Part shown: positions 20,044 through 24,047 of the stretch, in pieces | Position numbering within the stretch: the first letter of the stretch is position 1 | Layout: each line of letters begins with the position of its first letter | Origin: Thermosipho atlanticus DSM 15807 | Lineage (GTDB): Bacteria > Thermotogota > Thermotogae > Thermotogales > Fervidobacteriaceae | DNA: 64,000 nucleotides | Direction: 5' to 3' | Assembly (NCBI RefSeq): GCF_900129985.1 | Contig: NZ_FQXN01000002.1 | Span: forward strand, 186,001 to 250,000 | Program-made: the position numbers and the translations under genes | The notes under the pieces: model-generated | The model's input: only the letters and a program-made list of their open reading frames with translations | Database searches by the model: none | Told to the model about the DNA's origin: nothing

Positions 20044-20393
20044 TACCACGTTTGTAGTTCTTGAGGCTTCCTTGTCTCTATAACTATTTTGTTTGGAACG
20101 CAGATTATTTTTCCTCCTTCCGAAATTTTCCCGGTTTTTTCACAAATTTTTAATGGACATATCGAATCGGTAACCCAAACATTTTTACCGTCAAAATGGG
20201 CGATCATCAATAATTTTCCCTTTTCGTCTTTGATCTCATAATCTCCAGGTGTATTTAATTCAAGGATTTCTTGTCCATTTAATTTTACGACAAAAATTCC
20301 TTTATTTGTTTCGTTTTTAAGAATCAAAGGAATAAATATTGTTAAAAAAACTATAATTATTATTACAAAATCAGTTTTTTTAAATATTTTCAT
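20043..20393 (-). CDS. NusG domain II-containing protein
   Basis: 116 residues: an N-terminal transmembrane or signal segment (residues 7-25) then a domain of the NusG-II type: KLNGQEILELNTPGDYEIKD, VWVTDSICPLKICEKTGKI and IICVPNKIVIE. The two cysteines in CPLKIC plus another in ICVP are typical of this exported family. These proteins are usually encoded beside Gx transporter genes, as here, and both are often linked to redox or cofactor genes. Precise role unknown. AAGGTGA precedes the ATG. The start overlaps the 3' end of hutI by 14 bases. Confidence 0.8.
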   Translation of the reverse strand: MKIFKKTDFVIIIIVFLTIFIPLILKNETNKGIFVVKLNGQEILELNTPGDYEIKDEKGKLLMIAHFDGKNVWVTDSICPLKICEKTGKISEGGKIICVPNKIVIETRKPQELQTW

Positions 20394-21583: not shown

Positions 21584-22330
21584 TCACCCCAAGAAGAAAG
21601 CTACAATAGCAACTACTAAACAGTAATACCCGAAAATTTTTAATTTTTTAATAATGGTGACTCTTTTTAAAATGTAAAGACTTATTAAACCGACAATGAA
21701 AGCTAATAGACCGGTTACAAAGATTGAGTAATTGAACTGAATATTCTTAAATTCTAAGATGCCTGCTCCTAGTATAATTGGGACACTCATCAAAAAAGAA
21801 TACTTTAATGCCTTTTCTCTTTGCATTCCAATAAGAAGAGCACCAAATAGCGTGAAACCACTCCTTGAAATTCCAGGAAAAATTGCTAACATTTGAAAAA
21901 GACCAATGATTAAAGCATCAAGATAACTAATTGAAAAGAAATCTTTATCTTTTCCAATATTATCAGAAATAAACAAGGCTGCACTGGTTAAGAGAAAGAA
22001 AAATGCTATTAATTTTAAGGAATTGAAGGAATTTTCAATTTTAGAGTTAAACAAAATTCCAAATAATCCTGCAGGGATTGTAGAAATTATTAGTTTAATT
22101 ACTAAAATGTAATATTTTTTGTTTAATGTAAACAAACCTTCTAGAATTTCAAGAATTTCTTTGTGGACAAAAATTAGGATAGCAAATAGAGTTGCTATGT
22201 GTAAAAAAGAAAACAGAGGTAAATCAGGGTTGATTTTAAACATAGATGAAAATAAAGCAAGATGACCTGAACTGGAAATTGGCAAAAACTCCGTTGCTCC
22301 TTGGATAATACCTAGAATAATTTTTTCCAC
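21584..22330 (-). CDS. uppP: Undecaprenyl-diphosphatase UppP (BacA)
   Basis: Integral membrane phosphatase that recycles undecaprenyl diphosphate for peptidoglycan and surface-glycan synthesis. 248 residues, about eight helices. The two conserved loops are visible: GIIQGATEFLPISSSGHLAL at the N-terminus and FPGISRSGFTLFGALLIGM in the middle, containing the catalytic Glu, Ser and Arg. GTG start with AGGAGG upstream. It supports both murein synthesis and any polysaccharide made by the glycosyltransferases at 14997-16908. Confidence 0.95.
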   Translation of the reverse strand: MEKIILGIIQGATEFLPISSSGHLALFSSMFKINPDLPLFSFLHIATLFAILIFVHKEILEILEGLFTLNKKYYILVIKLIISTIPAGLFGILFNSKIENSFNSLKLIAFFFLLTSAALFISDNIGKDKDFFSISYLDALIIGLFQMLAIFPGISRSGFTLFGALLIGMQREKALKYSFLMSVPIILGAGILEFKNIQFNYSIFVTGLLAFIVGLISLYILKRVTIIKKLKIFGYYCLVVAIVAFFLG

Positions 22331-22342
22331 TTATTTAACCTC

Positions 22343-23041
22343 CTATGGAGTAATTCTTCCTACATATGGGCCATATGTGTACACATGTTCTCTCAATTTG
22401 TCCCAATCGATTTTGTTAAAGGCTTCAGATGCTGAATCTTTGTCCGGGAAGGCACCCAAGCATAAAGTGAAATATGTTTTGGTATTTCTTGAAAATTTCA
22501 ATACATAGGCTTCATAACCTAAAATACGAAGATTTACTAAATCTTCGAATAGCCGAGAAGAATTTTCACCAGTTTTTAAAAATATAGTATAAACAGATTT
22601 GCCCGGGATGAGGCCAGGATAGGTATGTTTACCTGGGATTACTACAAAATATTTGTCGTTGTTTAGCTTGTTTATTAAATATTCTTTGTTTACTCTTATA
22701 ATTTTCAGAGCATCATTTGAATCCAAAACAAATGTTGAAACTTCAGTAGAAGCTTCAATAATTTCCATAGAATAAGCTATGAGAGTTTCGTAATCAAAAG
22801 TCTCAATTTCAATCATTGTGCTAGTTGCTTCTTCCATAAATTCTGGTAACTTGTTTTCTTTAATTTCAGGTATTTTTAATTCCATAGGTTTTGGAATATA
22901 AATAACATTAACATCAACAGATGCTTTTTTTAAGTAAAGATACATTGAAGTTATTAAAAGTAAAAGGGATAGAATAGATAAAACAATGATTAAAACACTT
23001 AATACTTTTAATTCAAAAGGTTTTGAAATTCGTTTTGGCAG
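22343..23041 (-). CDS. Membrane-anchored SPOR-like protein, apparently starting at CTG
   Basis: 232 residues if read from CTG at 23041. From there the protein has a basic, cytoplasmic-type head (PKRISKPFELK), one transmembrane helix (about residues 13-32), a spacer and a C-terminal domain (YTIFLKTGENSSRLFEDLVNLR, GYEAYVLKFSRNTKTYFTLCLGAFPDKDSASEAF) that follows the SPOR pattern of two short repeats binding denuded glycan strands. The first ATG in frame (22945) would cut off most of the helix and has no ribosome binding site. GGAGG lies 9 bases before the CTG, and no ATG, GTG or TTG occurs between them. Probably a septal or cell-wall-associated protein. Confidence 0.65.
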   Translation of the reverse strand: MPKRISKPFELKVLSVLIIVLSILSLLLLITSMYLYLKKASVDVNVIYIPKPMELKIPEIKENKLPEFMEEATSTMIEIETFDYETLIAYSMEIIEASTEVSTFVLDSNDALKIIRVNKEYLINKLNNDKYFVVIPGKHTYPGLIPGKSVYTIFLKTGENSSRLFEDLVNLRILGYEAYVLKFSRNTKTYFTLCLGAFPDKDSASEAFNKIDWDKLREHVYTYGPYVGRITP

Positions 23042-23042
23042 G

Positions 23043-24047
23043 TTATATTCCCTCCTCTATATATTTTATTAGAAGTTGAATAGTTGCTTCTACGTCGTTT
23101 TTATGGACTGTTTCGTTGGGTGTATGGATATATCTAGTTGCAATGGAAACAGTTGCGCTGGGGATTCCCGCCTTTGTATTTTGATATCCTCGCGCATCCG
23201 TTCCACCAAAAATCAAGACTTCCATTTGATAGGGAATATTATATTTTTCAGCCAATTTCTTCAAGGTTTCGATTGTTTTTCTATCACTTATGGAATAACC
23301 ATCTTTAACTTTTAAACAAGTCCCTTTTCCTAACTTCATTGAAGTTCTTTTGTTTGCTTTGGGCGTATCTCCGGCTGCTGTAACATCGATTGCAATTGCA
23401 ACGTCTGGATCAATGTTGTAACCAGCAACTTGTGCGCCTACAATACCAATTTCTTCTTGTACAGCAAAAACTCCATATATCGTATTTTTTGGATTTTGAA
23501 CCCTTTTAAATATTTCGATAATTGTTACACAGCCAATTCTATCATCCATTGATTTTGAAATGTAGTAGTCACCTTGTTTGATGAAATAACCATCATATGT
23601 ACCGAAACTACCTATTGGGCAAAGGTTTTCTGCTTCTTCTTTACTTTTTGCTCCTATATCTACAAATAATTTGTCAAATGATAAGTCTTTTAAATTACTT
23701 ATTAAATCTTTTACTGTTTCCCCTTCTACACCAACTATTCCTACTGTATTTCCAAATCTTATTTTTGAATTAATTATTGTATATGGTGAAACTCCTCCAA
23801 CCATATCTATTCTTAAAAAGCCATTATCATCTATATTTGTGACAACTACTCCTATTTCATCCATATGTGCATCTAGAAGGATTTTTTTGTTGGTTTGACC
23901 ATTTTTCCAAACAATAAGGTTTCCAAGTTTATCAATTTCATAGCCGTCGATATAGCCTTCCAATTCTTTTAAGATAACTTCTCGGATTGTGTCTTCTCTA
24001 CCACTTGGACTAGAAACTTCGGTAAGCTTTTTTATTAATTCTTCCAT
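23043..24047 (-). CDS. M42 family metallo-aminopeptidase (glutamyl aminopeptidase/endoglucanase M type)
   Basis: 334 residues. Di-metal peptidase of the tetrahedral TET type. Metal-ligand regions in order: LDAHMDEIGVVV, SKSMDDRIGCVT, AVQEEIGIVGAQVAG with the catalytic Glu pair, IDVTAAGDTP, and SIATRYIHTPNETVHKND near the end. Some members were once described as endoglucanases, but the family acts on peptides. ATG start after AAAGGAGG. The stop codon is 1 base before the CTG start proposed for the next gene. Divergent from tilS. Confidence 0.93.
   Translation of the reverse strand: MEELIKKLTEVSSPSGREDTIREVILKELEGYIDGYEIDKLGNLIVWKNGQTNKKILLDAHMDEIGVVVTNIDDNGFLRIDMVGGVSPYTIINSKIRFGNTVGIVGVEGETVKDLISNLKDLSFDKLFVDIGAKSKEEAENLCPIGSFGTYDGYFIKQGDYYISKSMDDRIGCVTIIEIFKRVQNPKNTIYGVFAVQEEIGIVGAQVAGYNIDPDVAIAIDVTAAGDTPKANKRTSMKLGKGTCLKVKDGYSISDRKTIETLKKLAEKYNIPYQMEVLIFGGTDARGYQNTKAGIPSATVSIATRYIHTPNETVHKNDVEATIQLLIKYIEEGI

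Follow-up and report, generated by a model that had tools for sequence, protein, structure and literature searches.

Gene starts at non-canonical codons behind a strong Shine-Dalgarno (SD) sequence, CUG included, are already known in bacteria. Conserved AUU and AUA starts, such as those of infC and pcnB in Escherichia coli and of infC, cvfC1 and ccpN in Staphylococcus aureus, stand behind strong or extended SDs, reduce yield and are modulated by IF3 (PMC13009471). Weak starts tend to be paired with strong SDs, and in 36 triplets of close genomes a change to CUG was very rare, affecting 3e-5 to 4e-4 of ancestral starts (PMC5622118). In E. coli systems CUG is a poor initiator, its initiation complexes being less stable but in frame (PMC11497404). 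For Caulobacter dnaA, genetics refuted the in vivo use of a candidate upstream CUG start (PMC8443254), so a toeprint or an SD alone is insufficient to establish such a start. A literature search found no papers on the start codons of Thermosipho.

Here we investigate a candidate CUG start in a 64,000-nucleotide stretch (the window) of Thermosipho atlanticus DSM 15807. Like the AUU and AUA starts it is conserved and lies behind a strong SD. It differs from them in that the mismatch is at the first rather than the third codon position, in that the gene encodes a probable envelope protein of SPOR type, and in that the start abuts the stop of the upstream gene. In those systems the limit on expression is presumed or shown (PMC13009471), and here it is a proposal from sequence comparison. 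The pairing of CUG with an SD is shared with the E. coli complexes (PMC11497404), but unlike in the E. coli and Caulobacter cases the codon is fixed across a clade of nine species and is the only route to a conserved anchor. The protein has the predicted layout of the bitopic proteins FtsN, DedD and DamX, with a short cytoplasmic head, a single helix, a linker and a C-terminal SPOR domain, the last comparable also to the SPOR domain of CwlC; it is set apart from them by a divergent SPOR domain, an additional conserved middle region and an M42 peptidase as its genomic partner. The features of the locus are as follows.

22343..23041, minus strand: CDS of the SPOR-like membrane protein, 232 codons plus stop
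23039..23041, minus strand: putative CTG start codon, present in 9/9 Thermosipho-clade genomes and aligned with ATG, GTG or TTG starts of other genera
23050..23057, minus strand: Shine-Dalgarno GAGGAGGG, invariant in the nine genomes
23043..23045, minus strand: TAA stop of the M42 peptidase gene, 1 nt before the CTG (0 nt in genome L002)
22943..22945, minus strand: first in-frame ATG, located where the helix ends; it lacks an SD, is not a shared start among orthologues and is rejected
22949..23005, minus strand: transmembrane helix of residues 13-31, between a basic N-terminal head and KK
22352..22594, minus strand: SPOR-like domain at the C-terminus, residues about 150-230, with a predicted order of beta-alpha-beta-beta-alpha-beta
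23043..24047, minus strand: M42 family peptidase, conserved upstream neighbour, 77-87% identical in the other eight clade genomes
21584..22330, minus strand: undecaprenyl-diphosphate phosphatase (uppP/bacA)-like gene, downstream, 61-77% identical in the other eight genomes

The CTG codon and its context

On the minus strand the junction reads ATAGAGGAGGGAATATAAC followed by CTG CCA AAA CGA. The M42 peptidase gene ends GAG GAG GGA ATA TAA, and a single C separates this stop from the CTG. The SD overlaps the last peptidase codons (Glu-Glu-Gly). The first-pass annotation had proposed a CTG start 9 bases after GAGGAGG, and this spacing was confirmed. So was its statement that ATG, GTG and TTG are missing upstream of the ATG at 22945: in the open frame (22343-23056, minus strand) CTG is the only one of these four codons between the upstream stop and that ATG. 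The distance from CTG to ATG is exactly the 32 codons that had been counted, and hydropathy confirms that they encode a basic head and a helix. The span originally given, 22343-23045, does contain the gene, but the CDS occupies only 22343-23041, and 23042-23045 is the spacer base and the M42 stop.

Could translation begin instead at the ATG at 22945, leaving the stretch from CTG to helix untranslated and the product an anchorless SPOR-like fragment? This is what an ORF list restricted to ATG, GTG and TTG reports (22343-22945), just as had been foreseen for gene finders limited to three start codons. Against it, the protein so started (MYLYLKK...) would lose nearly the whole helix, although relatives throughout the order retain both the basic head and the helix; the ATG has no SD ahead of it, and it is missing in the other clade members. 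We regard this start as highly improbable. Three-start tools would nevertheless truncate the gene in every species of the clade, and a membrane protein would then look soluble.

The clade comprises nine genomes of the three closest GTDB genera, including the window's own genome (1.64 Mb), whose same-genus relatives are Thermosipho sp. metagenome-assembled genomes (MAGs). All nine have the pattern GAGGAGGG-nnTnTAA-(n)-CTG, and a scan for this signature found it exactly once per genome, at the SPOR-like gene. Comparison thus shows that the predicted CUG start, the strong SD and the distance of 0-1 nt from the M42 stop are constant features of the Thermosipho clade; conservation of the start codon was one of the checks that the earlier proposal had named. 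The codons after the CTG vary (CCA AAA, CCT AGA, GCC AAA, CGT TCT), as do the residues (PKR, PRR, AKR, RS), and the CTG itself is invariant. Neither CTG, at 2.8% of internal Leu codons in the window's genome, nor GAG, the Glu codon that builds the SD and makes up 16.5% of Glu codons, would be expected from protein conservation alone. Two of the assemblies with the signature (G006 and G010) are single contigs, so the conserved CTG is not a MAG artefact. A search of genome contigs with the single SPOR-like protein gave no matches, and a search with an alignment gave three Thermosipho MAGs. None of 11 sister genomes (Fervidobacterium-like) has the signature; ATG, GTG or TTG takes the place of the CTG in them.

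The invariance of the CTG bears on another reading, in which some other nearby non-canonical codon, such as the ATT four codons after the CTG, is the real start and the CTG is incidental. Conserved ATT starts do occur in this genome (infC and a TPR gene), but the nearby ATT is unconserved and too far from the SD, and such a start is very hard to credit.

The SPOR-like gene sits between the M42 peptidase gene and the uppP-like gene throughout the clade; the M42 family name rests on the first-pass annotation and sequence motifs, and the downstream gene is taken by us, from its sequence motifs, to be uppP/bacA-like. With the M42 stop and the SPOR frame 0-1 nt apart, the two proteins might be fused by frameshifting or stop readthrough, and no start would be needed. 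The relation between the frames differs between species, however. It is shifted by one in eight genomes, and in L002 a 1-nt deletion places the CTG directly against the stop, with the SPOR frame in frame behind it, so that one recoding mechanism cannot serve all, and the L002 frame opens at the CTG itself. In addition, gaps of 2-43 nt with normal starts are found in the Fervidobacterium-like relatives. Fusion is accordingly given very little credence. A usable canonical start is absent before the helix and a CTG with an SD occupies the start position; on this evidence CUG is very probably the start codon of the SPOR-like gene.

Orthologues and the encoded protein

Orthologues were found in 47 of the 61 genomes searched (the window's own included), nearly all within the order. 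When SD and alignment were used to pick a single start for each gene, the 44 aligned orthologues showed ATG in 18 cases, GTG in 12, CTG in 11 and TTG in 3, the homologous codon outside the clade being mostly AUG, GUG or UUG. Fervidobacterium-, Thermotoga- and Pseudothermotoga-like relatives have ATG, GTG or TTG at the homologous position with the helix conserved, and the M42 gene is upstream in these genomes as well. The membrane segment is thus kept across the order, as the annotation of a membrane protein had required.

Two genomes of another family (G039 and G041) have an apparent CTG start in their orthologue, and in a congeneric genome (G044) the leader is much alike but carries TTG. An in-frame GTG lies three codons upstream of the CTG in G039 and G041; it is the less likely start because it is inside the SD. 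If these two cases are real, parsimony suggests two or more origins of the CTG. The stretch upstream of these two orthologues yielded no M42 gene, so in these genomes the use of CTG would not require coupling to M42. As judged by sequence comparison, this genus-level fixed CUG start, possibly convergent, is an uncommon and clean new example.

The first 36 residues, LPKRISKPFELKVLSVLIIVLSILSLLLLITSMYLY, consist of the basic head and one helix, with a maximum mean Kyte-Doolittle hydropathy of 3.05 at residues about 13-31. An AlphaFold model, built from four close sequences, places a helix at 8-39 (pLDDT about 83 over residues 11-30) and is weak overall (mean pLDDT 50.6). The 'SPOR-like' label given at first pass was upheld at the level of the family: Pfam SPOR (PF05036) matches 25/31 family members at E up to 0.1 (best E 2.7e-7), and the window protein, at 19.2 bits, falls slightly short of the cut-off of 21. 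In a PDB profile search the SPOR domains of DamX and CwlC were weak matches. Of the fold matches to the low-confidence model DedD is the most credible, with a probability of 0.99 but an E of 0.034; the order of strands and helices in that model fits the beta-alpha-beta-beta-alpha-beta of SPOR. By these predictions it is a bitopic membrane protein of type II (N-in, C-out), and the SPOR domain at its C-terminus is divergent. A SPOR role is likely, and by analogy with FtsN, DedD and DamX its probable ligand is septal or denuded peptidoglycan.

Probable initiation at CUG and its possible effect on expression

How might the CUG be used? The tRNA set of the window's genome is ordinary, with one initiator-like tRNA-Met (GGG/CCC anticodon stem), one tRNA-Leu(CAG) and nothing to suggest a dedicated CUG initiator. 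We infer that the ordinary initiator fMet-tRNA would read the CUG with a first-position mismatch, and that the strong SD, together with ribosomes that have just finished the adjoining M42 gene (translational coupling), would make the codon workable. Re-initiation relies on IF2 and IF3 (PMC2268962). Folding of the mRNA around the nine CTG starts falls within the ordinary range, at the 8th-79th percentile of starts in their own genomes, with no sign of a structural switch. The locus offers a natural system for asking how a strong SD and stop-start adjacency offset a poor start codon.

Does the CUG hold down the amount of protein? Or does it initiate as a drifted neutral variant, its weakness being of no consequence? 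A weak start could hold an envelope or division protein at a lower level than the M42 peptidase encoded on the shared message, and that the CUG limits expression of the SPOR-like protein is a tentative proposal, to which we give somewhat less than an even chance. The neutral alternative, which competes with this throttling step only, comes close to an even chance. It gains from the possibility of a single origin in the clade, from the prospect that a strong SD and coupling make the identity of the codon matter little, and from the partial retention of other weak starts. Among starts with a conserved SD-bearing partner in G010, 47/97 TTG and 27/72 GTG starts are retained unchanged, or 38-48% between the two genera. 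Selection for weakness is therefore not proven and drift may contribute. The same figures show fast turnover of weak canonical starts, and fixation of the CTG in nine genomes thus suggests, without proving, selection. Neutrality also has to contend with the lack of any reversal to ATG, GTG or TTG (0/9 clade genomes), the apparently independent CTG of G039 and G041 and the rarity of switches to CUG (PMC5622118). The most specific form of the throttle, in which a CUG from the Thermosipho ancestor, re-evolved in G039 and G041, is selected for its sensitivity to IF3 and ties the protein level to initiation-factor balance, seems unlikely.

Other candidate non-canonical starts in the genome

A screen of 96% of the window's genome, with a simple coding-potential gene finder (1542 genes), indicated that, in genes without an SD-bearing canonical start, among the non-canonical codons CTG shows the greatest over-representation behind a strong SD. 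It occurs behind an SD of at least 6 in 5/280 (17.9 per 1000), and the next codons in this sham-codon control are below 10 per 1000. Not all five CTG candidates are real, as one is a decoy. In a pairwise screen of 799 reciprocal best hits against 1.2 Mb of G010, the SPOR-like gene was the only pair with a conserved CTG/CTG and an SD (1/799). Plausible ATT/ATT starts in the same comparison are those of infC, the textbook case of an ATT start, a TPR gene and an rsuA-like gene. Simple cross-genus comparison of this kind can uncover conserved ATT and CTG starts.

Within the window, a CTG at 20101-20103 (minus strand), with a strong SD before a Gx-transporter-like gene, was rejected as a second case because the CTG or TTG there belongs to overlapping Ile-Cys codons of the upstream gene. 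By sequence, the start of that gene is probably an inner GTG/TTG near 20049 (20047-20049, minus strand), and some relatives have CTG at this inner position. CTG candidates at C2:28184, C2:303001, C3:87726 and C1:178638 are without homology support. Outside the window, a 369-codon gene at C2:72009-73118 (minus strand) has as its best start a CTG after AGGAGG; it had no match in the 1.2 Mb of G010 compared. A murE-like gene at C4:189455 (plus strand), also outside the window, has an apparent CTG at a position that is TTG in G003, G010 and G014, the context being unchanged. This suggests that the ribosome of this species accepts CUG.

Two of the ATT candidates, both outside the window, can be described further. 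The TPR-repeat gene at C4:125586-127184 (minus strand) has a probable ATT start behind AGGAGGGG, kept in 5/9 Thermosipho-clade genomes; in G004, G008 and G041 the homologous codon ends in TG. It is possibly, from this comparison, a second conserved ATT start besides infC. The rsuA/rluB-like pseudouridine synthase gene at C6:977-1732 (minus strand) has a probable ATT/ATC start with a good SD, found also in G010.
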